This document shows, piece by piece, positions 3,458-14,314 of a stretch of DNA of 34,413 nucleotides. This DNA comes from a virus. The stretch covers positions 1 through 34,413 of the IMG/VR virus record IMGVR_UViG_3300044712_000953; one strand, written 5' to 3'. The notes under the pieces were generated by a model. That model saw only the letters and a program-made list of their open reading frames with translations, ran no database searches and was not told where the DNA came from. Made by a program: the position numbers and the translations under genes. How positions within the stretch are numbered: position 1 is the first letter of the stretch; every line of letters starts with the position of its first letter.

Positions 3458-3610
3458 ATGGTGCTAATATCAATAGATCAAACCGACAAAGACGAAATCG
3501 ATGCACTAAGCCGCAAATTCGCGGAGAAACTAAACGTAAAAGGCGTATCATACGCCGTCACAATTCACGAGTTAGTAAGATTCTACAAAGAACATGAGGT
3601 GAAAGCATAG
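3458..3610 (+). CDS. Small helical protein, 50 aa, possible DNA-binding regulator
   Basis: The sequence begins MVLISIDQTDKDEIDALSRK and continues with a hydrophobic strand (GVSYAVTI) and a C-terminal helix (HELVRFYKEHE). A strand-helix-helix pattern of this length is reminiscent of short ribbon-helix-helix regulators, but no specific match is claimed. It is the first rightward gene after the divergent promoter, a usual place for an early regulator. AAAGAGG precedes the ATG. Confidence 0.6.
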   Translation: MVLISIDQTDKDEIDALSRKFAEKLNVKGVSYAVTIHELVRFYKEHEVKA

Positions 3611-4018
3611 ATGTATCAATGCAGCCAATGTAACAAGCAGTTCCTACACACCGCCAAACTCACAGAGTACAGCACCCCCCAAGATATAGCGTTAGATGAA
3701 GACACCACAGCAAAAGGCGTAATGAACACCCTTGATGCTTCTGTCTGTCCATTCTGCAAATCAAAAGCCTACACTGAAACCGTAGAGGAAAAGCAGGTCG
3801 GCGGCATCAAATTAGAAGACATCGGCAGCCTTATCGACTGCGCCCCAAGCGAAGCAAACAATTACTTAGATCAGGGTTATGTGCTTTATCAGACCTGGCA
3901 AAAAAACGTGTTCTTAGTCAAGTTAAAGCAGAAAGCGCCAGTTGACGCGGAGCCTGATGAGTTAGGCAAAATTATTCAGGCGGGTATTGAGCAAGCCAAA
4001 AAGGAGGCACAGCCATGA
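3611..4018 (+). CDS. Zinc-ribbon protein, 135 aa
   Basis: The N-terminus MYQCSQCNKQF and VCPFCKSK near residues 45-52 give two CxxC knuckles of a zinc ribbon. The middle (IKLEDIGSLIDCAPSEANNY) and YVLYQTWQKNVFLVKLK form a small alpha/beta domain, and the tail is helical. The ATG follows the preceding stop directly. The 3' end contains GGAGG for the next gene. No function is assigned. Confidence 0.7.
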   Translation: MYQCSQCNKQFLHTAKLTEYSTPQDIALDEDTTAKGVMNTLDASVCPFCKSKAYTETVEEKQVGGIKLEDIGSLIDCAPSEANNYLDQGYVLYQTWQKNVFLVKLKQKAPVDAEPDELGKIIQAGIEQAKKEAQP

Positions 4019-4158
4019 CTCTTAAGCTTGCGTCTCAGCACTGTCTCAACTGTGGGTTTTATGGTGAAGCAGCCATGTGTGCAAATCGGAAGTCAGATGT
4101 TTATGGTGAACGGTGCCACATGAATGATTGGTGCAGCCAATGGGGGCAAAAACAGTGA
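4015..4158 (+). CDS. Cysteine-rich microprotein, 47 aa
   Basis: Cysteines at HCLNCGFYGE, AAMCANRKS, RCHMNDWCSQW give five to six possible ligands for one or two metal ions. The ATG overlaps the stop of the 135-residue gene and is served by AAAGGAGG inside that gene. It belongs to a recurring class in this genome of small proteins with a short CxxC front and a WC or YW end. Function is unknown. Confidence 0.6.
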   Translation: MTLKLASQHCLNCGFYGEAAMCANRKSDVYGERCHMNDWCSQWGQKQ

Positions 4159-4253
4159 TTGCTATACCTGAATATGGCGGTTTCAGAGACTACGCGCAGA
4201 TAGCGGTGAATTTGGCGTATTTGCATAAGAAACAGGTGAACAAACATGACTGA
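4155..4253 (+). CDS. Possible 32-residue microprotein
   Basis: A GTG overlapping the preceding TGA (GTGA) opens a frame reading VIAIPEYGGFRDYAQIAVNL and ends in HKKQVNKHD, with its stop overlapping the next ATG region. The overlap on both sides is typical of this operon, but the start codon is weak and the product is very short. Confidence 0.4.
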   Translation: MIAIPEYGGFRDYAQIAVNLAYLHKKQVNKHD

Positions 4254-4938
4254 AAATCTTGAGCGTAAAAACGAGTTAGCATCCCAACCCTTCCAAGAAT
4301 TAGATGTCCGTGATGAGGGTCAAATCCTTGCAGAGATGCGCGGCGAGTTCCTAGAGCAATATGTATATAGTTTCACTCAAGCAGGCCGTAACATCACTAA
4401 CTTGTCCTATGTTGGCGTGAAAGAAGCTATACGCAGACGTGGTCATGTGCAAATCCTTGATCACCGCGTTGAAGAAGTTAATGGGAAATACCGCGCTACC
4501 GTCCTAGTGCATGACTTAGTAAACGATATTGATGTTCTTGGCGTGTCTGAAGCTGAAGTTAACAAACCCTTTGCTTATGTGCTGGCAGTTAACAAGGCAG
4601 AGCGGAACGCATTTATGAAAATCATCCCCGCCAAATTCTACGCAGAATTAATCACTGAGAAACTAAAAATTGCAGCACGACCTACGCCGGTTAATGTTAC
4701 TCCTAAACCTGTGTCGAATTTGCCTAAACAAGAACAAATTGAAATGGCGCTTGTGGAAGCGAAACTCAGTGACCTATTAACTGTAGCTAAAGAAGAAGAC
4801 AACATAACAGTCCACTACAAGACACTGCTTAAAACTGAGGACTTCAAAACCGTATGCCAAATTGCTGAACGCTTTGGCGGCAAATGGAACAAAGAAAACG
4901 GCGTCTGGATCATACCCGAGGGAGAGGTTACGCCATGA
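4246..4938 (+). CDS. Possible single-strand annealing/recombination protein
   Basis: This 230-residue protein has an N-terminal domain (about 30-135) with YVGVKEAIRRRG, a beta-rich centre (YRATVLVHDLVNDIDVLGVS) and KPFAYVLAVNKAERNAFMKI-IP. An alanine-rich helix ending in RNAxxxxIP is common in ERF/Rad52/RecT-type annealing proteins, where it follows the beta sheet. A proline linker leads to a C-terminal module with RFGGKWNKENGVWIIP, like small domains found in replication-related proteins. It is the largest gene of the early block before the modification genes. If correct it would pair DNA strands during replication or recombination. The assignment is by pattern only; an SSB-like or unknown DNA-metabolism role is possible. 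Confidence 0.5.
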   Translation: MTENLERKNELASQPFQELDVRDEGQILAEMRGEFLEQYVYSFTQAGRNITNLSYVGVKEAIRRRGHVQILDHRVEEVNGKYRATVLVHDLVNDIDVLGVSEAEVNKPFAYVLAVNKAERNAFMKIIPAKFYAELITEKLKIAARPTPVNVTPKPVSNLPKQEQIEMALVEAKLSDLLTVAKEEDNITVHYKTLLKTEDFKTVCQIAERFGGKWNKENGVWIIPEGEVTP

Positions 4939-5285
4939 TTGTCTGGAAATACTGCTCCGACTGCGGACGACAACTAAGAACACGCCGCAGTATCCGGTGT
5001 CAACCCTGCTCTGTCCGGTACCGTGCTAAACTGCAAAACCACGATTGGCAACCCACCGAACTGGAGGTTTTGCAAGCGTACTGTAAAACCCGTGAAACCC
5101 TAACAGAATTAACAAGAGAAATCGCAGAGACCAGGCAAACGGCGGTGGCGTTGCGGAGTAAACTGTTAGCGCGTCATAATGCTCAGTCAATTCAGAATAA
5201 AATACATTACTTACAGGACAGGGGATGCTTATCGCGTATGGAGGGGGCGGTGTGTTTTGTGAAGGTGGAGCCGTTAAAATGTTAA
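4935..5285 (+). CDS. Zinc-ribbon plus coiled-coil protein, 116 aa
   Basis: The N-terminus holds CSDCGRQL (residues 8-15) and CQPCSVRYR (about 27-35), a zinc ribbon with a basic flank. A helical segment (RETLTELTREIAETRQTAVA) is likely a coiled coil. The ATG at 4935 overlaps the upstream stop (ATGA); an upstream in-frame start inside the previous gene is less likely. GGGAGAGG precedes it. It is probably nucleic-acid binding or a scaffold; no family was recognised. Confidence 0.65.
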   Translation: MIVWKYCSDCGRQLRTRRSIRCQPCSVRYRAKLQNHDWQPTELEVLQAYCKTRETLTELTREIAETRQTAVALRSKLLARHNAQSIQNKIHYLQDRGCLSRMEGAVCFVKVEPLKC

Positions 5286-5422
5286 AGTTCCGGCTGCCAT
5301 CGTTTTGTCCGGCGCGTCACTTGAAGGTGGGTGAAGCTTTGGTTTGCCCGAAACTTGACGCAGAAGGTGGCTGCCGCCGCTGCATGAATGATAACATAGA
5401 TGTTGAGGTGGACCCAAAGTGA
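5279..5422 (+). CDS. Cysteine-rich microprotein, 47 aa
   Basis: The ATG at 5279 overlaps the previous gene's end. Cysteines at SFCPAR, LVCPKL and GCRRCMND could bind one zinc ion. The end is acidic (NIDVEVDPK) and leads into a GTGA overlap with the next frame. Function is unknown. Confidence 0.55.
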   Translation: MLKFRLPSFCPARHLKVGEALVCPKLDAEGGCRRCMNDNIDVEVDPK

Positions 5423-5553
5423 CATGTCGTAAAGGATGCACTTGGAACGCTACTGATTATGATGGGCAAAAAGCCTTTGGCGTTATGTTGCCGAATGTGA
5501 CTAAAGCATGGGTGGACTCATATGTGCCTGAATGGTGGAGAAAACCAAAATGA
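5419..5553 (+). CDS. Small tryptophan-rich protein, 44 aa
   Basis: A GTG overlapping the preceding TGA opens a frame reading TCRKGCTWNATDYDGQKAFG and ending in SYVPEWWRKPK. Two cysteines and four tryptophans suggest a real folded peptide rather than chance. It overlaps the next ATG by four bases (ATGATG region). Function is unknown. Confidence 0.5.
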   Translation: MTCRKGCTWNATDYDGQKAFGVMLPNVTKAWVDSYVPEWWRKPK

Positions 5554-5879
5554 TGGTTGCTGAGACTAGCCGCCAAAGCTACCACAAATTATCCCCCACA
5601 AAGATTCCGTCTGAAGCAGACCGATGCCTAAACATATTTGTGGGTAAGCCGCATTTGGTGTTTAGCCACCGAGACATAGCCATATCCACAGGGTTAGCGG
5701 TCAACGTTGCACAATCACGCTGTAACTACCTGTTAACCAAACGACACGCCATAGAATACGCAGGGATCTACTACGATTTTATGACCAAAAGAAGTGTACA
5801 GAAATACCGGCTGGTAAAGCATAAAAAGAAAACCACACAGACAGATGAAACTAATCCGATAGGAGATCATCAAGCATGA
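5550..5879 (+). CDS. Winged-helix DNA-binding protein
   Basis: About 109 residues. Residues 25-95 show a winged-helix pattern: a helix (CLNIFVGKPHLVFSHRDIAI), a turn, a recognition helix (VNVAQSRCNYLLTKRHA) and a wing ending in IYYDFMTK...VQKYRLV. Such proteins usually regulate transcription. The tail is lysine-rich. The ATG at 5550 is chosen because it overlaps the stop of the preceding gene; an in-frame ATG at 5532 would extend it by six residues. It lies just upstream of the modification block and may control it. Confidence 0.7.
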   Translation: MMVAETSRQSYHKLSPTKIPSEADRCLNIFVGKPHLVFSHRDIAISTGLAVNVAQSRCNYLLTKRHAIEYAGIYYDFMTKRSVQKYRLVKHKKKTTQTDETNPIGDHQA

Positions 5880-5977
5880 GTACACGAATACATTGCCCTT
5901 ACACCTATTGCAGTCCTAGTTGTCCAGCATGGGATAGCTGCAAAGGCGAACCAGATAAGGAGTATGAAAAGAAATGA
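5876..5977 (+). CDS. Cysteine-rich microprotein, 33 aa
   Basis: The peptide MSTRIHCPYTYCSPSCPAWD followed by SCKG has four cysteines spaced as a compact knuckle, then a charged tail. Both ends overlap neighbouring genes by ATGA, and AGGAGA lies upstream. It is similar in style to the other microproteins but not clearly homologous to any one of them. Confidence 0.55.
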   Translation: MSTRIHCPYTYCSPSCPAWDSCKGEPDKEYEKK

Positions 5978-6540
5978 GTCAGCCCCTTATCTTAGATGCT
6001 ACAAGCAGCTTCCGGCGCATGTGGAAAAACAAACAGCACCCATGGACCGTTTACATGGACATACGAAGCAACAAACAAATCCACAAAGACTGGCACGAGT
6101 GCATGATACAAAAAGGCCGCAACACAGACATAGGCTTCACTAACCTAACCATTCAAGCAGACTTTTCGCATCTACCCTTCAAAAGCAACACCTTTAAGCA
6201 TATCAGCTTTGACCCCCCGCAACTTATCCGCTTAGGCAAAACAAGTATTTATTATAAACAATTTGGCGCGTTAGAAGCTGATACTTGGCGTTTAGTTCTC
6301 ACGCAGGCGGCCAAAGAGTTAATTCGAGTACTGGATTACGGCGGTACACTCAATGTTAAGTGGAGTGACCGCGACATAGACTCTGAGGAAGTTCTAAAGC
6401 TATTTCCAATTGAGCGATTATACGGTCAAGAAGGCGCTCACGGTGCAAGCAGTAAGACTAATTGGTTTACTTTTGTGAAGCTGCCAGTTATTGAAGAATC
6501 AGTTAAAGTGCCGGAACTTTTGGGGGCTGTTATCGGATGA
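5974..6540 (+). CDS. SAM-dependent methyltransferase-like protein with DPPQ motif
   Basis: This 188-residue protein begins with a strand LILDATSSFRRMW, in the position of the SAM-binding motif I, and has VYMDIRS as the next strand (acidic residue for ribose). LPFKSNTFKHISFDPPQL contains the motif IV DPPQ at about residues 80-83, as in amino-methyltransferases. ELIRVLDYGGTLNVKW is the typical strand after helix D. The glycine-rich motif I is degenerate (DATSSF), so activity is not certain. It overlaps the radical-SAM gene by four bases and opens a block with two further N6-adenine methyltransferases, so a nucleic-acid substrate is likely. Phage proteins of this kind are widespread and poorly characterised. 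Confidence 0.75.
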   Translation: MSQPLILDATSSFRRMWKNKQHPWTVYMDIRSNKQIHKDWHECMIQKGRNTDIGFTNLTIQADFSHLPFKSNTFKHISFDPPQLIRLGKTSIYYKQFGALEADTWRLVLTQAAKELIRVLDYGGTLNVKWSDRDIDSEEVLKLFPIERLYGQEGAHGASSKTNWFTFVKLPVIEESVKVPELLGAVIG

Positions 6541-7241
6541 GTTCTACTACTCTAGTGCAGCAAAGATTATGTAAAGATGTCAAGCTAAAGAAGCCCTACG
6601 CTTACGGCCCTTACAATGTGGTGCGGGGAGATCGTCAAGCTATCCGCATAACAGAGGGATGCGTTAACAACTGCCCCCAATGCTACGAACCGACACAGCT
6701 TAAAATATTTGGCATTCCTGAGATCGTTAAGAACGATGTGCTTATCTTTGACATGAATTTGCTATGCAAACCCGAAGCTCTAAAACTGATTGAGCAACTT
6801 GGAGCTAAAAGGGTAGGGGAAAAGGTTGTAAAGTATGAGCTTGTCTGTGGCATAGATTTTAGATTCCTAAATCAAGACTTAGCTAACGCGCTCTATAAGA
6901 ATCGGTTTGTACGGATGCGCCTAGCATGGGACACGCCTTATGCAGATCAGAAGCGGATTAAGAAGGCTCTCGATATGTTGCTTAAAGCTGGCTATCAACG
7001 CAAAGACATCATGGTGTTTATGCTCTGCAACCACAAGCGAGTAAGCTACACGGAGAACTGTAAGAAACTAGACCTGTGCAAAGTGTGGAACGTCAAAGCC
7101 TGCGATTGCTACTATGACGGGTTAGTGATGCCTCATGTTATCCCTATCGGTTGGGCTATGGAGCAAATAATTAGCTTCCGGTCTAAGGTGCGCAAGCATA
7201 ACCAGATTGTTAACTTTGGGATTGATCCAGAGGTTGATTGA
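6537..7241 (+). CDS. Radical-SAM family protein
   Basis: This 234-residue protein carries CVNNCPQC at residues 42-49, the CX3CX2C motif that binds the [4Fe-4S] cluster of radical-SAM enzymes, followed by an aromatic residue (CY) as usual. Downstream strands include VLIFDMNLL, VKYELVCGIDFRFL and RMRLAWDTP, matching a partial TIM barrel, with KALDMLLKAGYQRKDIMVFM near residues 145-165. The C-terminal part has a few more cysteines (LDLCKVWNVKACDCYYDG) that might bind a second cluster. The length is short for the superfamily. It overlaps the DPPQ methyltransferase gene and is three bases from the MT-A70 gene. A role in base or protein modification is inferred from context; substrate and product are unknown. 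Confidence 0.8.
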   Translation: MSSTTLVQQRLCKDVKLKKPYAYGPYNVVRGDRQAIRITEGCVNNCPQCYEPTQLKIFGIPEIVKNDVLIFDMNLLCKPEALKLIEQLGAKRVGEKVVKYELVCGIDFRFLNQDLANALYKNRFVRMRLAWDTPYADQKRIKKALDMLLKAGYQRKDIMVFMLCNHKRVSYTENCKKLDLCKVWNVKACDCYYDGLVMPHVIPIGWAMEQIISFRSKVRKHNQIVNFGIDPEVD

Positions 7242-7244
7242 CGG

Positions 7245-7844
7245 ATGAGCGTTACTTGTCTAGCTCTTCCTAACAAAAAATACCAAGTTATCTATGCTGA
7301 TCCTGCTTGGCAATACGATAATACAAACGGTTTTGGTGAAGGACCAAACGGTGCTGCATTGCACTATGATGTAATGAGTTGCCAAGAAATCTGTAATTTA
7401 CCCATACATTCCATATCTGATAAAAACTGCGTTCTATTCCTTTGGGCAACTGTACCTCTAATGCCTGAAGCTTTTAAAGTTATGGAAGCTTGGGGTTTCA
7501 AATACAAAACTATGCTAACTTGGCGAAAAGTAAACTCATTAGGCTTAGGCTTCTGGTTCAGAGGACAAACAGAGCATCTTCTAGTTGGAACCAAAGGAGA
7601 TGTCAAATGTTTCCATAGCCAAAAACCAAATGTTATACAAGCTAATGTTCATAAGCATTCAGAAAAGCCCCGACAGTTTAGAGCTTTAGTTGAGGAAGTA
7701 ACGAAGGGTATAGGTCCAAAGATAGAACTTTTTGCCCGCGAAAGACTTGAGGGGTGGGATTCTTGGGGAAATCAATTACCCGCGACAATGCAAGTTTGTC
7801 TTGCGTTGGATCATGCACATCCGATAAAGGAGAGAAAACAATAA
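7245..7844 (+). CDS. MT-A70-family adenine-N6 methyltransferase
   Basis: The 199-residue protein has YQVIYADPAWQYDN at 13-26, the catalytic DPPW-type motif with Ala in the third position, followed by HYDVMSCQEICNLP, NCVLFLWATVPLMPEAFKVM and AWGFKYKTMLTWRK. GLGFWFRGQTEHLLVGTKGD and KHSEKPRQFRALVEE are the conserved late motifs of MT-A70 proteins. EKP and the ELFAR end are typical of phage members. It transfers a methyl group from SAM to adenine N6 in DNA (or RNA). Its TAA overlaps the ATG of the D12-class enzyme (TAATG), so the two are co-translated. The recognition sequence cannot be predicted. Confidence 0.92.
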   Translation: MSVTCLALPNKKYQVIYADPAWQYDNTNGFGEGPNGAALHYDVMSCQEICNLPIHSISDKNCVLFLWATVPLMPEAFKVMEAWGFKYKTMLTWRKVNSLGLGFWFRGQTEHLLVGTKGDVKCFHSQKPNVIQANVHKHSEKPRQFRALVEEVTKGIGPKIELFARERLEGWDSWGNQLPATMQVCLALDHAHPIKERKQ

Positions 7845-8560
7845 TGTTCTCTTATTATGGGTCAAAAAGCAAACTGGCCCAGTATTACCCTTACCCAAAA
7901 TATAATGCAATAATTGAACCTTTTGCAGGTAGCGCAAGATATTCCTTATTTGGAGAAAATTGGAAAAAGCAAGTTATACTTATTGATAAATACAAAATCA
8001 TTGCTGATTTATGGCGCTACTTAATTGAGGAAGCCACACCAGAACGTATACTTAATTTGCCCGATGTAGCAGCTGGACAATGCGTTGACGATTTACCAGT
8101 TTCAAACATAGAAAAACAGCTGATAGGGTTCTGTGTTAACAGAGGATGCACTTCACCCTGTCATTATCCTGGGCAATGGAATATCTGGGCAAGTGACAAA
8201 AAAAGAATAGCTACAGAATTACATAAAATAAAGCATTGGAAGATTATCGAAGGAACCTATTTAGATGCTCCCGATTTAGAAGCAACTTGGTTTATCGACC
8301 CTCCTTATCAAAAAGTCAAAAGAGATTATGTTGTTGGGAAAAAGAATCTTAGCTTTGATGCTCTAAGTCAATTCTGTAAGTCGAGAAAAGGGCAAGTTAT
8401 TGTTTGTGAGAATCTTGGGGCTGATTGGTTGCCTTTTAAACGTTTAATTAATTTTGAAGGGCAGCTGCACACAAAAACTGAAACTGTTTGGTTTAACAAT
8501 AATAGCGGAACTTTGTTAGATTTTGTTTCAACGGATGGCGCTGATAAGTCGGAGATATAG
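7844..8560 (+). CDS. D12-class (Dam-type) DNA adenine-N6 methyltransferase
   Basis: A 238-residue protein from the ATG at 7844, chosen because it overlaps the previous stop and gives the conserved start FSYYGSKSKLA. EPFAGSARYSL at 25-35 is the SAM-binding motif; VILIDKYKIIADLWRYL follows; DPPY at 152-155 is the catalytic motif. Family members methylate adenine N6, often in GATC. RGCTSPCHYPGQWNIW lies where Dam enzymes hold the target-recognition region. It closes the overlapping block DPPQ-MTase / radical SAM / MT-A70 / Dam. The final TAG lies within the first palindromic operator of the next transcription unit. GATC sites are common in this genome, so a purely self-protective role by site avoidance is not seen. 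Confidence 0.92.
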   Translation: MFSYYGSKSKLAQYYPYPKYNAIIEPFAGSARYSLFGENWKKQVILIDKYKIIADLWRYLIEEATPERILNLPDVAAGQCVDDLPVSNIEKQLIGFCVNRGCTSPCHYPGQWNIWASDKKRIATELHKIKHWKIIEGTYLDAPDLEATWFIDPPYQKVKRDYVVGKKNLSFDALSQFCKSRKGQVIVCENLGADWLPFKRLINFEGQLHTKTETVWFNNNSGTLLDFVSTDGADKSEI

Positions 8561-8607
8561 TAATTACCACAAATCTTATATAGTAATTACTATATTATAG
8601 TAATTAC
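8558..8607 (+). promoter_or_regulatory. Promoter with three TAGTAATTAC operator repeats
   Basis: TAGTAATTAC occurs at 8558-8567, 8581-8590 and 8598-8607; the core GTAATTAC is a perfect palindrome. A TATA-like CTTATATAG (about 8575-8583) overlaps the second copy, about 42-48 bases before the ATG at 8624. A fourth GTAATTAC is at 9006-9013. The layout suggests repressor sites covering the TATA box of the cassette operon. Confidence 0.65.
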
Positions 8608-8623
8608 TAAAAGAGGAAGTAAA

Positions 8624-8743
8624 ATGGCAACACTAAAAAATCTCTATCATAAATCAAAAGCATGTGTGACACCAAAAAACCGATGCCCCGAATGCGTTTA
8701 CTTTGATCCTACAGAGAAAGTTTGCGGTTACTTCCCACGGTGA
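8624..8743 (+). CDS. Zinc microprotein, 39 aa
   Basis: The peptide contains ACVTPKNRCPECVYFDPTEK then VCGYF, giving four cysteines in a compact pattern likely to bind zinc. AAGAGGAAGT precedes the ATG. It is the first gene after the operator-bearing promoter, so it could be a regulator of the cassette operon or an early host-directed peptide. No family was recognised. Confidence 0.6.
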   Translation: MATLKNLYHKSKACVTPKNRCPECVYFDPTEKVCGYFPR

Positions 8744-8748
8744 TTATT

Positions 8749-9009
8749 ATGAGTGAAGGCGAGTTAGGAAAAAGACTTCAACAGAAAATCAAAGATGGCG
8801 AAGGAAAAGTTAGCTATGCCTTCGGCGTTAAACCAATCTTAGATGAATGCTTGGTTTGGTTCTTAGAAGGCCAACCAGAAGTATCTCCACAAACAATGAG
8901 ATGGCTTAAAGTATGGTTTGGCTTTGATGCTGATACTTGCGAGGGTGTACGCCAAGGTTGCGGCTTTAAACTTTTACCACCAAAAAACCTTAAAAACGGT
9001 TCGGAGTAA
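8749..9009 (+). CDS. Unknown 86-residue protein
   Basis: Starting at the ATG at 8749 (an in-frame ATG at 8722 would overlap the upstream gene), the product has a charged front (SEGELGKRLQQKIKDGEGKV), a hydrophobic core (YAFGVKPILDECLVWFLEGQ) and TMRWLKVWFGFDADTCEGVR. It is small, probably helical, with three cysteines. The stop codon lies inside the fourth GTAATTAC element. Function unknown. Confidence 0.65.
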   Translation: MSEGELGKRLQQKIKDGEGKVSYAFGVKPILDECLVWFLEGQPEVSPQTMRWLKVWFGFDADTCEGVRQGCGFKLLPPKNLKNGSE

Positions 9010-9016
9010 TTACTAT

Positions 9017-9163
9017 ATGGTTTTAAATACGACACCAGAAGAACAAGAAAAATTCAGAGCCTTAAATCGTGTAAGAATGAAGACTTATCGAGACAAAACA
9101 AGAGTCCGCAAATATAGTCCCCGTGTTAAATGTGTTCAAAACGATAAGAAGGGAGAACAATGA
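9017..9163 (+). CDS. Basic small protein, 48 aa
   Basis: The ATG at 9017 follows the GTAATTAC element; the frame is open upstream inside the previous gene, but this start avoids a long overlap. The product is strongly basic (RALNRVRMKTYRDKTRVRKY), suggesting nucleic-acid binding. Its stop overlaps the next ATG. Confidence 0.55.
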   Translation: MVLNTTPEEQEKFRALNRVRMKTYRDKTRVRKYSPRVKCVQNDKKGEQ

Positions 9164-9294
9164 GCGAACATAACTGTGCTAACTGCAAATACAAACCTCA
9201 AGCAAGATTCTGCCATCCTTGCGTCGAGTGTTTAGAGTTTCGTACACAATACCCATACTGGAAATCCAAAGAAACTAAGGAGGAAAAGCAGTAA
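9160..9294 (+). CDS. CANCK zinc microprotein, copy 1 (44 aa)
   Basis: The protein reads MSEHNCANCKYKPQARFCHP then CVECLEFRTQYPYWKSK. CANC and CVEC form a zinc knuckle. It is clearly paralogous to the 40-residue protein at 12821-12943: both share HNCANCK and CLE(F/Y)RTQYPYWK. The two copies lie 3.6 kb apart in the same operon. The ATG overlaps the upstream stop (ATGA), with AAGGGAG just before. Function is unknown; conservation of the RTQYPYWK end argues for a specific binding role. Confidence 0.7.
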   Translation: MSEHNCANCKYKPQARFCHPCVECLEFRTQYPYWKSKETKEEKQ

Positions 9295-9518
9295 TGAACG
9301 AAGAGCACATACAGGGTTGGCAATCGACATATTTCTTTGACGAAATGCAAAACCATAAGAAAAAACTTGAGGAATTAGAGAAAGCAGTCAAAGAATCGCA
9401 AAAAGAACTTACAGCAATCACTTGGGAACGTGACCACGAAAAAGCAATCACTGACGCTTTAGAAAAAGCGTATAATGAAGTCAACGTATCGGTTGTACAA
9501 GAAGAGACGAAACCATGA
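9294..9518 (+). CDS. Coiled-coil protein, 74 aa
   Basis: After an aromatic front (HIQGWQSTYFFDEMQNHKKK) the sequence is a continuous charged helix (LEELEKAVKESQKELTAITW) predicted to form a coiled coil. The ATG overlaps the previous TAA (TAATG), with AAGGAGG upstream. The tail EETKP is encoded by the ribosome-binding region of the next gene. Confidence 0.65.
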   Translation: MNEEHIQGWQSTYFFDEMQNHKKKLEELEKAVKESQKELTAITWERDHEKAITDALEKAYNEVNVSVVQEETKP

Positions 9519-9979
9519 TACAGCAAGTCTTAGCCCCAATAAAATATTCTAATGATGCTCAATACTGGCTCATTCCTAAAAACATCTTTGACCCGTTAGA
9601 TGCTGAGTTCCATTTCGATTTTGACCCTTGCCCCTACCCATACAAACAAGACGGTATAGACGCAACATGGGGCAATGTCAACTGGATAAACCCACCTTTC
9701 AGAAAGAAAGACGCAATCAACAACCATGGACCTACAGCGTTTGTGCGAAAGGCCATCGAGGAAAGCAAGAGGGGTAAAACAAGCGTTATGGTTCTGCCAA
9801 CACAAAGTTATGTTAACTTGATGTTAGAAGCTGGGGCAGAACTTAGGTCAATGGGTAGAATCAGATGGATAGACGCAAGAACTCAAAAACCATGTACTTC
9901 ACCTTCACCAATTACGCTTTTTGTATTAAAAGGTAATTCGACTAGTGTATCCAACTCAACGGAGGATAAAAAACCATGA
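9515..9979 (+). CDS. Phage-type DNA N6-adenine methyltransferase (PF05869-like)
   Basis: This 154-residue protein has the features of phage N-6-adenine methyltransferases: an N-terminal YWLIPKNIFDPLDAEFHFDF followed by DPCPYPYKQDG, the catalytic NPPF at 59-62 in VNWINPPFRKK, and SVMVLPTQSYVN with IRWIDARTQKPCTSPSPITL, where the late strand ends. It is a complete single domain and probably methylates adenine in viral DNA. It is separated from the other methyltransferases by six small genes and lies inside the cassette array, suggesting independent acquisition. The C-terminal NSTEDKKP tail encodes the ribosome-binding site of the next gene. Confidence 0.88.
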   Translation: MIQQVLAPIKYSNDAQYWLIPKNIFDPLDAEFHFDFDPCPYPYKQDGIDATWGNVNWINPPFRKKDAINNHGPTAFVRKAIEESKRGKTSVMVLPTQSYVNLMLEAGAELRSMGRIRWIDARTQKPCTSPSPITLFVLKGNSTSVSNSTEDKKP

Positions 9980-10173
9980 CTGAGTTAAAATGTATCCTCT
10001 GCAAAAAAGTTAGAAAAACAGAGCAAGGCATGTTTAACCACCTTAAAAAAGAACACGCCGAAACCATGCGAGGCCACTATAATATCGTTGATAACTTCTC
10101 ATGTGAAGAGGGAAGCGAGTTATGGAAACAGTTATCGAGTGTAGATGATCCAACGGAGGCTAAAACTCCATGA
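9976..10173 (+). CDS. C2H2 zinc-finger protein, 65 aa
   Basis: CILCKKVRKTEQGMFNHLKK followed by EHAE gives C6, C9, H22 and H26/27, a classical C2H2 zinc finger of the sort common in archaeal viruses. The rest is a short helical region and the tail DPTEAKTP, which doubles as the ribosome-binding site of the next gene. It probably binds DNA or RNA. The ATG overlaps the methyltransferase stop. Confidence 0.75.
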   Translation: MTELKCILCKKVRKTEQGMFNHLKKEHAETMRGHYNIVDNFSCEEGSELWKQLSSVDDPTEAKTP

Positions 10174-10355
10174 GTTCAGAACCATGCAGCACCACAAAGT
10201 ATGTCCTACAAGACTTCGCAAACGACACAACACTATGGTTCAATACGGCCGAAGAAATAGGTGAGTATCTTACTGAAAAAGCCCTAATTGACCCAGCCGA
10301 GTACTCAGCTTATGAACTAGGGAAAGAAGTAAAGTTTAAGCTGGTGCCAACATGA
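10170..10355 (+). CDS. Unknown 61-residue protein
   Basis: A compact, acidic protein with TLWFNTAEEIGEYLTEKALI and SAYELGKEVKFKLV, which suggests two helices followed by a strand. No cysteine knuckle. ATGA overlaps at both ends and the GGAGG lies inside the previous gene. No family was recognised. Confidence 0.6.
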   Translation: MSSEPCSTTKYVLQDFANDTTLWFNTAEEIGEYLTEKALIDPAEYSAYELGKEVKFKLVPT

Positions 10356-10696
10356 AGTGCAAAAACCCCAACCTCTCTATAGATTGCTGGATGGACACAG
10401 AAACCCCCGATTGCACCGGCTGCGGCTACCATGACATGAAGGTTTTAACTGAAAAGATAGAGCAAGCAAAACGAGATCATCCAGACGCTATTTGTTTTGT
10501 CGGCTCAGTCTGCCCTAACATGGAAACCATATTTCTGCCGAGAGGTCCTTGTGGCAAGTATCTTAAGCGTTGGCCTACAAGTCATTGTCGTGTTCGCTTT
10601 GATTTAGATGGTACTTTGAATGTTGAGGCTAAGAAGTGGATGCAGGCGCATGCCGCTAAGACTGATGATAATAAATTAACAGAGGGAAAGGTATGA
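10352..10696 (+). CDS. Cysteine-rich protein, 114 aa
   Basis: The N-terminus KCKNPNLSIDCWMDTETPDC then TGCGYH contains four cysteines likely to bind zinc. The C-terminal half (DAICFVGSVCPNMETIFLPR) and HCRVRFDLDGTLNVEAKKWM form an alpha/beta region with further cysteines. The LTEGKV tail carries the AGAGGG site for the next gene. Function unknown. Confidence 0.6.
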   Translation: MKCKNPNLSIDCWMDTETPDCTGCGYHDMKVLTEKIEQAKRDHPDAICFVGSVCPNMETIFLPRGPCGKYLKRWPTSHCRVRFDLDGTLNVEAKKWMQAHAAKTDDNKLTEGKV

Positions 10697-11040
10697 GTTT
10701 AAAAACAAAAGCCAAAATACCTAGTGAGATTATATCTGAAATAGATCGCCCCCTGAAAATGGCTGAAAAATGGGTAAAACTCAGTGACGCTGAATCAGAA
10801 ATAAAAGTCTCTGTACAACAGGCCGTAATAGATGTTATGCTGGTTGGAATAAAACTGGGGGAAGCGCATAATAAAGTTTTGAATCTATTAGAGCCTTTGC
10901 CTAAAGGATTAAAGGATTCTACTGTCGTTATAAAAATTAAGGAACTTGAAGAGTTAAGAGATTTACTTGAACCAGAACCTAGGGCAATACCTTGCACAGT
11001 GACTAATGGAAATAACTTAACAGAGGGAAAACCAGAATGA
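10693..11040 (+). CDS. Unknown helical protein, 115 aa
   Basis: The product is helical and charged, with PSEIISEIDRPLKMAEKWVK and EIKVSVQQAVIDVMLVGIKL. No zinc motif occurs. The C-terminal NNLTEGKPE encodes the next ribosome-binding site, using nearly the same DNA as the upstream gene's tail (19 of 20 bases match between 10670-10689 and 11011-11030). No family was recognised. Confidence 0.65.
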   Translation: MSLKTKAKIPSEIISEIDRPLKMAEKWVKLSDAESEIKVSVQQAVIDVMLVGIKLGEAHNKVLNLLEPLPKGLKDSTVVIKIKELEELRDLLEPEPRAIPCTVTNGNNLTEGKPE

Positions 11041-11294
11041 AAAACATGAACTGGAAACAGCTTGAGGAAGACCTTAAAGAATTCATAGAAATGGCTGACC
11101 GTTTATCGAGTGATTATTTTGGGAGTAGGTCAGAAGATATAAACGCTAACGCGAAGGGTCCAGAAGATTTCAAGTTGATAGCAGAACAGAAGCAAGCAAC
11201 CTACTGCGAACTTCTCAAAGTTCTGTTTCCTATAGCAGTAGAGAACAACACAAAGACTAATGCCAAAAACTCAACGGAGGCTAAAACAAAATGA
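11037..11294 (+). CDS. Unknown helical protein, 85 aa
   Basis: Mostly alpha-helical, with WKQLEEDLKEFIEMADRLSS and FKLIAEQKQATYCELLKVLF. The end NSTEAKTK is of the translated Shine-Dalgarno type seen in neighbouring genes. It overlaps both neighbours by ATGA. No function is assigned. Confidence 0.6.
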   Translation: MKNMNWKQLEEDLKEFIEMADRLSSDYFGSRSEDINANAKGPEDFKLIAEQKQATYCELLKVLFPIAVENNTKTNAKNSTEAKTK

Positions 11295-11485
11295 GTATGG
11301 AAGAACTGAAAAAGAAGTTAGCACCAATTCACAAAGAACTAAACGAAAATCTAACTAAACAACAACTACTACTCGAAGAATACCAAAACTTGCTAGAAAA
11401 AAGCATTGAAACCACTGATGATTATTTCCAAAAAATTAAAGATTCGTTAAATGCTAAAGACTTGTCTGAGAGGCCACAACCATGA
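11291..11485 (+). CDS. Small coiled-coil protein, 64 aa
   Basis: An almost continuous amphipathic helix (KKKLAPIHKELNENLTKQQL and LLEEYQNLLEKSIE) suggests a coiled coil. The tail LSERPQP overlaps the GAGAGG signal of the next gene. Function unknown. Confidence 0.6.
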   Translation: MSMEELKKKLAPIHKELNENLTKQQLLLEEYQNLLEKSIETTDDYFQKIKDSLNAKDLSERPQP

Positions 11486-11697
11486 CACAAGATTGGGCTA
11501 AATCACCATTCGAGCAAATGATAAGCGACCTAAGAAAAGAAGCGCCAGCTAAATGCCAATCATGCGAATGTCTCTTTGCTAATTACCGAGATGGCGCACA
11601 AGGTACGGGTTGGTATATGGATTGCGAGACTAAACCCGATTGTTACCAGGATGAACCATTGACTAGTGTCAACAATAAATCGGAGACTCAACCATGA
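11482..11697 (+). CDS. Cysteine-rich protein, 71 aa
   Basis: CQSCECLFANYRDG, MDCETKPDCYQDE provide five cysteines, a likely metal site, after a helical front (FEQMISDLRKEA). The GWYMDCETKPDC end recalls other small viral zinc proteins. The tail NKSETQP contains the CGGAGA site for the next gene. Confidence 0.6.
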   Translation: MTQDWAKSPFEQMISDLRKEAPAKCQSCECLFANYRDGAQGTGWYMDCETKPDCYQDEPLTSVNNKSETQP

Positions 11698-12011
11698 CAG
11701 AACAAGAAAGATTAGTTGACGCGCTCTTTGAATGGCATGCCAAGAAACTCGACAAACTTAACACTAAATTCTATGCAACACTTGACCGACTACAAAAAGA
11801 CTGCAAGCACGAAAGAACACATTGGATGCAAGAAATAGATAAAGCCGGGTATCCTAAAGCTGGCCTTTTCAAACGATGTTTTATCTGTGGTGCTACAGTG
11901 GAGCATCTAGATGCTTCTAATGAAGCTGTAGAAATCGCTATGAAAGCGTTCGATGGAGCAACCGAATTAATCAAAGCATCGTTAAATAAATCGAAAGAGA
12001 TGAAAAAGTGA
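11694..12011 (+). CDS. Helical zinc protein, 105 aa
   Basis: A helical front (ERLVDALFEWHAKKLDKLNT) leads to CKHERTHWMQ and CFICGATVEHLD, supplying three Cys and His ligands for a zinc site, then a C-terminal helix. Overlaps the next gene by TGATG. Function unknown. Confidence 0.65.
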   Translation: MTEQERLVDALFEWHAKKLDKLNTKFYATLDRLQKDCKHERTHWMQEIDKAGYPKAGLFKRCFICGATVEHLDASNEAVEIAMKAFDGATELIKASLNKSKEMKK

Positions 12012-12295
12012 TGACTCAAAATAAAAAATATACTAATGAAGTATTGAGAAAAGTAAATGCAGAACTATCGCTACAGTTAGCTAAAGCAGACCAAAAAAAT
12101 GAGGCACTTGAGGCTAAGTTCGCAAAAACAGACAAAACAATAGACTCTCTGATAAAGGATTACGAGCTTATCAAACAGAAAGCCATTGAATCCTCTGACA
12201 CAGTTAAGATTTACTCCTCTGGCGCTGTCATTCGCAACCTCTTAGACTTAAAAGAGATTCTTAGTGGGAAACCAACAGGAGACAGTAACCCATGA
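12011..12295 (+). CDS. Coiled-coil protein, 94 aa
   Basis: The ATG at 12011 overlaps the preceding TGA; a GTG three bases earlier is possible. The product is a long charged helix (LSLQLAKADQKNEALEAKFA, KTDKTIDSLIKDYELIKQKA), probably an oligomerising coiled coil. The tail TGDSNP encodes ACAGGAGA for the next gene. Confidence 0.6.
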   Translation: MTQNKKYTNEVLRKVNAELSLQLAKADQKNEALEAKFAKTDKTIDSLIKDYELIKQKAIESSDTVKIYSSGAVIRNLLDLKEILSGKPTGDSNP

Positions 12296-12474
12296 GTTAT
12301 GAAGAACTAATCAAACAAGAAATTAAGGAATTTGAACAATTCCATAAAACACATAAGCCCTATGAGAACTGCAAATCAATAACTAAGCGTGAGATAGCTC
12401 TTTACGTTCTTCTAAAAAGAGGTCAAATTAAATTTAAGACGAGTTGCGTTGATTCAACAGGAGATAAGAAGTAA
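12292..12474 (+). CDS. Unknown 60-residue protein
   Basis: Helical, charged front (ELIKQEIKEFEQFHKTHKPY), then SITKREIALYVLLKRGQIKF, which has the look of a small helix-turn-helix-like hairpin. The DSTGDKK end carries the next ribosome-binding site. No family was recognised. Confidence 0.55.
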   Translation: MSYEELIKQEIKEFEQFHKTHKPYENCKSITKREIALYVLLKRGQIKFKTSCVDSTGDKK

Positions 12475-12824
12475 TGCAACCTCACTATATCCACCCAACT
12501 GCGGCGGAAATGACAGCACAAAAACTAATAGGAAATGTAGGAAGACGAATTGTCAGACAACCTTATTATGTTCCCGAAATGCCAAACTACTCAAAAATTA
12601 TCTTCCTAAACAAAGAAAATCTTGCAGAGCTTGAAGGCTACAAAGCCTCCGTTGAATTGTATGGCGGTTTAATGGGTAAGCAAGAAGTTCACATAATACT
12701 TACTGGCTTCTCTTTTAATTCAGCAAAGGCATTATTTGATAAACTGAAAGCTCTGCCGAAACATGAGATTTACAGCGATTCGACTAACGCGAACCTTCCG
12801 ATAAAAAAGGAGACAACAAAATGA
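12474..12824 (+). CDS. Unknown alpha/beta protein, 116 aa
   Basis: After a short polar front the protein has SKIIFLNKENLAELEGYKAS and KQEVHIILTGFSFNSAKALF, a likely alpha/beta fold. The tail KKETTK is translated from AAAAAGGAGACAACAAA, the signal for the following CANCK copy. No family was recognised. Confidence 0.6.
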   Translation: MQPHYIHPTAAEMTAQKLIGNVGRRIVRQPYYVPEMPNYSKIIFLNKENLAELEGYKASVELYGGLMGKQEVHIILTGFSFNSAKALFDKLKALPKHEIYSDSTNANLPIKKETTK

Positions 12825-13330: not shown

Positions 13331-14314
13331 ATGAATAGAACCGTAACCGCCCTAATCCTCCTTATAGCCTGTGCTTTTCTACCCTCAACCATGGGGCAAT
13401 CTGAAACAGCTATTTACCACTCAGAAGTCTACGAAGGCATCGAATACACCTACGCCTACCCCCTCAACGTCACAGATCCCCCGTTAGTGTGGTATAACAC
13501 TGGCAGCGGCGACCAATACCGGCCCCAATTCTTCCAAACCTTCCTAACCCACGGCTACGCAGTGATTCAATGTTACAAAAACGGGTTAACGGGTTACGAG
13601 AAGTGGAGTAACTGGACCGAAGCCCAAACCAACTACACCACCGCATTAAACATCTTAGTTCCCTACGTGTTAGGTGACAGTTTTCCGTATCGGGACACGT
13701 TTAATCATTCAGCGGTGGTTGCGTATGGTTGGAGCTGCGGCGGCGGCGCATGGCTAAACCTCAACTACAGCAGTTTTCGGGGGTTGGTGGCTTCTACACC
13801 CGCCTATGCATTAGAACCCGCGGTTAACGTTTATCCCGTGTTGATTATTACGGGTGAGAATGATTCTGTAACTCCCTCGGCGTCCAACGGCGAAAAATAT
13901 TACGGGTTGATTGGTGCGGATAAGTTTTTTATTCAACAGAAAAATATGGGGCATGAGGAGTACGCGAATTTGAATTACACTTTTGCGTTTTATGATTGGG
14001 TTATTAATGGGAGCCAGTCGGCTTTAAGTTATGTTGAAGAGGCGGGGGGTGATCCGTTTGTGGCTATGGCTAATTATCTGTTAGTTGCTCCGTCGCCTTC
14101 GCCATCACCTACACCGTCACCATCACCTAGTCCTATGGCTACGGCGGTTTCTGCGGAGCCTACGCCACATGCAACAGTAAAAGTGATTAAAACTGTGTCG
14201 CCTACGCCGGCAATACCGGAAGTGTCTTTATGTGCTGTAGCGGCGTTAATGTTGTTTGTGGTTGTATTTGTTGTGGTGGTTAAAAAGGCAAATCCTTTAA
14301 GCAAGCGCCTGTAA
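13331..14314 (+). CDS. Secreted, membrane-anchored alpha/beta-hydrolase
   Basis: This 327-residue protein starts with a signal peptide (about 1-22, TVTALILLIACAFLPSTMG). The catalytic domain (about 25-235) fits the alpha/beta-hydrolase fold: AYGWSCGGG gives nucleophile Ser135 in GxSxGG, LIITGENDS gives an acid (Glu176 or Asp178), and KNMGHEEY gives His208. A Ser/Pro/Thr stalk follows (253-268, SPSPSPTPSPSPSP), then a C-terminal helix (about 296-318) with a KK end. At least eight N-X-S/T sequons are present. It should act outside the cell, anchored to the membrane or envelope, as an esterase or related hydrolase. Substrate is unknown; roles in envelope opening, exit or superinfection control are possible. 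It lies after the cassette operon without an obvious promoter. Confidence 0.8.
   Translation: MNRTVTALILLIACAFLPSTMGQSETAIYHSEVYEGIEYTYAYPLNVTDPPLVWYNTGSGDQYRPQFFQTFLTHGYAVIQCYKNGLTGYEKWSNWTEAQTNYTTALNILVPYVLGDSFPYRDTFNHSAVVAYGWSCGGGAWLNLNYSSFRGLVASTPAYALEPAVNVYPVLIITGENDSVTPSASNGEKYYGLIGADKFFIQQKNMGHEEYANLNYTFAFYDWVINGSQSALSYVEEAGGDPFVAMANYLLVAPSPSPSPTPSPSPSPMATAVSAEPTPHATVKVIKTVSPTPAIPEVSLCAVAALMLFVVVFVVVVKKANPLSKRL

Follow-up and report, generated by a model that had tools for sequence, protein, structure and literature searches.

The run of four genes at positions 5974-8560 of the window, by which we mean the whole 34,413-base virus record analyzed here, is best read as several independent modification enzymes gathered in a viral early region, with the radical-SAM protein standing apart from the methyltransferases around it and not forming one pathway with them, a reading to which we give a probability of roughly two in three. 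The window carries tailed-virus genes, including terminase and portal, and its virus is probably archaeal, an assignment that rests on the Methanofastidiosa host of the related virus vir520, a weak match (29%) of the terminase to that of Halorubrum phage Hardycor1, and the look of the protein encoded at 13331-14314. This last is predicted to be secreted and is hydrolase-like; it has a stretch rich in proline and serine, a membrane anchor at its C terminus and an archaeal style.

Layout of the modification block

The original prediction described four overlapping or abutting genes, and the coordinates and family matches agree with it: all lie on the forward strand, with junctions of -4, +3 and -1 bp. 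The first (5974-6540) encodes a small SAM-dependent DNA methyltransferase of the phrog_954 type (PHROGs E 4.7e-41), whose motif IV, DPPQ, is atypical; in a homologue from Bacteroides phage BS-TP2 the motif reads DPPH, and relatives occur in 232 phage records. The radical-SAM gene follows at 6537-7241, and then an N6-adenine methyltransferase of the MT-A70 family (7245-7844; Pfam MT-A70 E 1.4e-30, phrog_359 E 3.6e-67; motif IV DPAW), which has relatives in 352 phage records.

The fourth gene, predicted as a D12-class Dam, is real, and it is only its start that needed correction. The listed open reading frame began at GTG 7754, a start that we rejected since it merely extends the gene into MT-A70, and the homologous part begins at ATG 7844, within the TAATG that closes MT-A70 and overlapping its stop codon by one base. 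The gene therefore runs from 7844 to 8560 (238 residues, motif IV DPPY). Its Pfam MethyltransfD12 match (E 5e-5) belongs to the reading from 7754 and is barely above the cut-off, and the reading from 7844 matches NCBIfam dam at E 0.006. Relatives are few, comprising three phage and four IMG/VR sequences only. A further N6-adenine methyltransferase had been placed at 9515-9979 (+), and a phage Dam-type (PF05869) enzyme with motif NPPF is indeed found there (Pfam Dam E 2.8e-8); homologues of this gene lie immediately upstream of the radical-SAM gene in two other loci of the family, L021 and L025. The MT-A70, D12 and Dam proteins each combine a family match with a motif IV, the two features by which orphan phage adenine methyltransferases are recognized.

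Tight packing of the four genes is ordinary for this window, because 18 of the 23 junctions across the early region (3458-12824) abut or overlap, 12 of the 23 being exact 4-bp overlaps. Very small genes form a series at 9294-12824, nearly all of them joined by exact 4-bp overlaps, and a small protein with restriction-endonuclease-like matches (DUF559/MTES_1575) is encoded on the reverse strand at 2285-2629.

A predicted stand-alone radical-SAM core

The product of 6537-7241 is, by prediction, a true radical-SAM core of 234 residues, as had been proposed from its CX3CX2C motif. This motif, CVNNCPQC, occupies residues 42-49 and is encoded at 6660-6683 (+; TGC GTT AAC AAC TGC CCC CAA TGC). The Pfam Radical_SAM profile (PF04055) scores 15.2 bits (E 0.024), below its curated cut-off of 29.5 bits, and it is the PHROGs match (phrog_9298, 'radical SAM domain protein', E 3.5e-12) and the predicted structure that place the protein in the superfamily. 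The family was therefore built from alignments; scans with successively larger alignments recovered it, where single-protein or two-sequence scans gave none or one locus. An AlphaFold2 model built on 21 sequences has a mean pLDDT of 85.9 and a pTM of 0.81, and Foldseek returned seven matches at E<=0.001, including AprD4, MgmA, MiaB and RimO. The nearest solved folds, which also take in TsrM and lipoyl synthase, are all radical-SAM enzymes at about 10% identity, and sequence searches of the PDB gave chance matches or none. Sulfur insertion, methylation and rearrangement are all found among the nearest solved homologues, and with reactions so varied the chemistry of the window protein cannot be chosen from sequence.

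The window protein belongs to an unnamed viral and mobile family of 25 members, made up of the window itself, 20 viral loci (vir520 among them) and four assembly contigs labeled Cloacimonadota, Nanoarchaeota and Woesearchaeota; one member is truncated and two pairs are near-duplicates. Within the phage-record collection the family occurs in a single record. Its conserved blocks are G-C-x3-C/H-x2-C, D-M-N, C-G-x-D-x-R, A-W-D and R-K-H-N-Q. Two cysteines outside the cluster motif, C104 and C191, do not vary among the aligned members and are candidate catalytic thiols, C191 (as D-C) being present also in three of the closest cellular relatives.

The UF08_54 type of phrog_9298, from Marinitoga camini virus 1, shares the radical-SAM core, the CX3CX2C motif and the D-x-N, G-I-D-x-R and A-W/Y-D blocks, but has 360 residues with an N-terminal Rossmann-like domain, and the window protein matches phrog_9298 at E 3.5e-12 only. 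The protein vir520_00008 of the Methanofastidiosa virus (BK063667) is a stand-alone core of the same family (about 51-53% identity) that differs in having a CX5HX2C motif, in adjoining a Holliday-junction resolvase-like gene, and in a C5 methylase lying four genes upstream. The cobalamin-type enzymes AprD4, TsrM and MgmA and the methylthiotransferases MiaB/RimO have extra domains that the window protein lacks, and the N-terminal B12-binding domain of class B cobalamin radical-SAM methylases is likewise absent. QueE, of the 7-deazaguanine route, has a CX14CX2C motif and a transglycosylase partner, which has no counterpart among the window ORFs scanned. The three-Cys phage proteins of the DUF5131 (Gp37/Gp68) type are radical-SAM-like too, but form a separate family by sequence; one such gene (L010:7267-7947) lies immediately upstream of a family member.

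The MiaB and RimO neighbors raise the alternative that the protein acts on a conserved RNA or protein of the host, taking over translation in the manner of MiaB/RimO, and is unconnected with DNA. The presence of lipoyl synthase among the Foldseek neighbors is consistent with this, and the high conservation of the gene, which is the best conserved of those common to the window and a sibling virus, could equally reflect such a target. However, MiaB and RimO carry an N-terminal UPF0004-type domain and a C-terminal RNA- or protein-binding domain, and the 234-residue core has no Pfam or NCBIfam match to either; moreover, the cellular relatives adjoin DNA-modification and defence genes and not translation genes. 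We regard a target of this kind as unlikely, although it deserves some weight.

Exchange of cysteine for histidine at the cluster motif

The middle cysteine of the cluster motif is kept in 18 of the 24 readable members, the window among them, and is histidine in the other six, with no other substitution seen. The motif is CX3HX2C in L006, L010, L012, L017 and L028, and CX5HX2C in L002/vir520. Codons at this position are CAY or TGY, two changes apart, so that a single read error cannot explain the histidine. On the tree the Cys/His label requires at least two changes, of which the well-supported branches force one only. A model of the L010 protein gave the same kind of fold in Foldseek, although its alignment is shared with that of the window model and the two are not independent. 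The IMG/VR search found no further members of the histidine-type clade, and among open-licence papers we found no description of CX3HX2C or CxxxHxxC in connection with radical SAM.

The site in these proteins could be a [4Fe-4S] cluster held by two cysteines and one histidine or a zinc site. One rival reading is that the protein might be a decayed or purely structural metal binder in which the exchange marks a zinc site or a binding function only. Alternation of Cys and His is what one expects at a zinc site, not at a radical-SAM cluster, and in the 32 more distant relatives whose motif is readable the three cysteines (CX3CX2C) are always kept, with no histidine in any of them. Set against this, the window and most members have the canonical motif together with the DMN, CG-D-R and AWD motifs, and the histidine forms are themselves intact, otherwise conserved ORFs. 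Decay or a purely structural role is very unlikely in our judgement.

Linkage to methyltransferases among viruses

The original prediction suggested that the radical-SAM protein and the methyltransferases might together form a route to an unusual or hypermodified base. The coupling of the radical-SAM gene to METHYLTRANSFERASES was assessed in three ways, in sibling viruses, across the whole family, and in reverse. The IMG/VR virus behind L015 (G010, 37,395 bases) is collinear with the window in its early and structural genes, and carries the radical-SAM gene in the same position at 64% identity, compared with 27-53% for the remaining shared genes. Upstream of it lies a C5-cytosine methylase, and matches to MT-A70, D12, Dam and N6/N4 methylases are all absent from this virus. 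A second sibling (G011, behind L016) also retains the radical-SAM gene, at 62% identity, and shows no methylase of these five Pfam families within its 19-kb fragment, from which methylases may have been lost or may lie off-contig. With the methylases swapped or lost between siblings, it is the radical-SAM gene that has been retained while the methylases come and go.

Whether homologues of the gene routinely lie away from methyltransferases, which the original prediction had named as evidence against itself, can be answered only half in the affirmative. The window aside, the family occurs in 18 distinct viral records. Of these, 5 have no methylase of the five Pfam families, and in only about a third does one lie no more than a gene away from the radical-SAM gene, whereas 13 hold one at a distance of 8 bp to 5.6 kb; several of these records, like G011, are fragments whose missing methylases may be off-contig. 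MT-A70 occurs once in the 18, some 29 kb from the radical-SAM gene, and D12 has no match above cut-off in any of them. The types found near family members vary between C5, N6/N4, Dam, ParB-fused and none. Distances between the radical-SAM gene and the methylases are shorter than uniform placement would give (Fisher p 0.0046; 0.018 with one record per clade), in a test that assumes such placement and ignores the modular nature of phage genomes. The proximity is weak, and there may be some functional tie. A narrower comparison of neighbors had pointed to no methylase link at all, and this view was replaced by that of a loose, type-changing link in the wider set.

A joint hypermodification pathway, in which one methyltransferase and the radical-SAM protein act sequentially on the same base, would fit the direct adjacency of these genes in the window, the methylases held by the 13 other viral records, and an archaeal plasmid (LC711081) in which a sister radical-SAM gene and three methylases form one overlapping operon. 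It sits poorly with siblings in which the radical-SAM gene persists although the methylases are lost or exchanged, with partners whose type and chemistry (C5 or N6) rotate from virus to virus, and with the abundance of these methylases in phages without the radical-SAM gene, the 232 and 352 phage records noted above standing against one. In addition, the window ORFs scanned yielded no gene for a kinase, hydroxymethylase, glycosyltransferase or transglycosylase, and with these partners lacking the known hypermodification routes were dropped. We therefore consider the joint pathway highly improbable, and the earlier suggestion is not upheld for these methyltransferases.

Cellular and plasmid relatives

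A profile search covering 371 archaeal genomes from a single phylum and 147 bacterial genomes, likewise from one phylum, returned two-domain relatives at E 8e-35 to 4e-31, with the next tier at 4e-10 to 1e-9. The closest cellular relatives by profile (L072-L076, and L087 and L088 on plasmids) have the same core motifs, but at about 340-545 residues they possess an N-terminal domain, matched weakly by Pfam B12-binding in three, and they reside in cellular modification or defence islands that PADLOC leaves unnamed. In archaeal or Cloacimonadota genomes, a DGQHR (DndB/DpdB-like) gene is adjacent in L072, L074, L075 and L076, L074 having a ParB gene besides. A Cloacimonadota contig (L073:3579-9542; G448:C65) has an operon of PbeA, PbeC (a DndD-like ATPase), a Dnd-associated 4 protein and the radical-SAM protein, with neither DndC nor DndA seen within the 18 kb read, and the radical-SAM protein may stand in for the modification component here. 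Components of Dnd/Pbe phosphorothioation (DndC, DndD, DndE, PbeA-D) are absent among the window ORFs scanned, and are present only beside the cellular relatives.

According to excerpts of two papers, the Pbe defence genes function alongside phosphorothioation of DNA (PMC6459918), and differing modification enzymes are taken up by related ABC-ATPase systems (PMC10853773); those excerpts describe no radical-SAM partner for either. Among open-licence papers we likewise found no description of radical SAM with DGQHR or DndB.

On Rhizobium and Agrobacterium plasmids (Rhizobiaceae), the relative overlaps a DGQHR gene and has a GHKL-type ATPase gene after it (cassettes L087:6871-12197 and L088:5499-12203), with a ParB-annotated gene and a helicase also present in L087; this cassette could be a modification or defence system not described before. 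The archaeal plasmid LC711081 (L091:4597-12098) carries an intein-split sister gene whose product is only distantly related to that of the window (25% identity across 141 residues). Three methylase genes (N6/N4, C5 and N6/N4) come next, joined by overlaps of 4 bp, and a PAPS-reductase-like gene lies beyond them. L078 deviates, its neighbors being a GHKL ATPase, a spore-photoproduct-lyase-like protein and TcmP, and the annotation of the Pelobacter and Selenomonas plasmid relatives shows no DGQHR neighbor. Taken together, these contexts suggest that the family and its cellular relatives occur in DNA-modification or defence settings above chance expectation. A regular-expression search for DGQHR near distant matches is too weak a test to be used as a control.

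A model for the radical-SAM protein and its significance

In the reading that we favor, that of several independent enzymes, the methyltransferases would be exchangeable orphan N6-adenine enzymes, most likely marking viral DNA against host restriction, and the radical-SAM protein would be the product of a separate gene that this virus group has long retained. Its core would bind a [4Fe-4S] cluster and SAM, generate a 5'-deoxyadenosyl radical and modify an unreactive position. The most likely class of substrate would be nucleic acid, with viral or host DNA favored since the closest cellular relatives lie beside DndB/DpdB-like, ParB-like and Pbe genes. A role in DNA modification is plausible on the strength of these DGQHR, ParB and Pbe neighbors and of the three methylases beside the archaeal-plasmid sister, and we infer a protective or counter-defence function.

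DNA-acting radical-SAM enzymes are few, and virus-encoded ones without a pathway usually go unexplained. A bolder and, in our estimate, rather unlikely proposal is that the family constitutes an unrecognized class of DNA-modifying radical-SAM enzymes, which in cells would act as a two-domain modification component beside DndB/DpdB-like or Pbe genes and in viruses as a stripped core marking or editing the virus's own DNA, with part of the family running on Cys-His-Cys (CX3HX2C/CX5HX2C). If the histidine forms are active, the accepted ligand rule of the radical-SAM superfamily would change. With the gene context of the family now defined, as viral early genes and as cellular DGQHR, ParB and Pbe islands, its substrate becomes directly testable.
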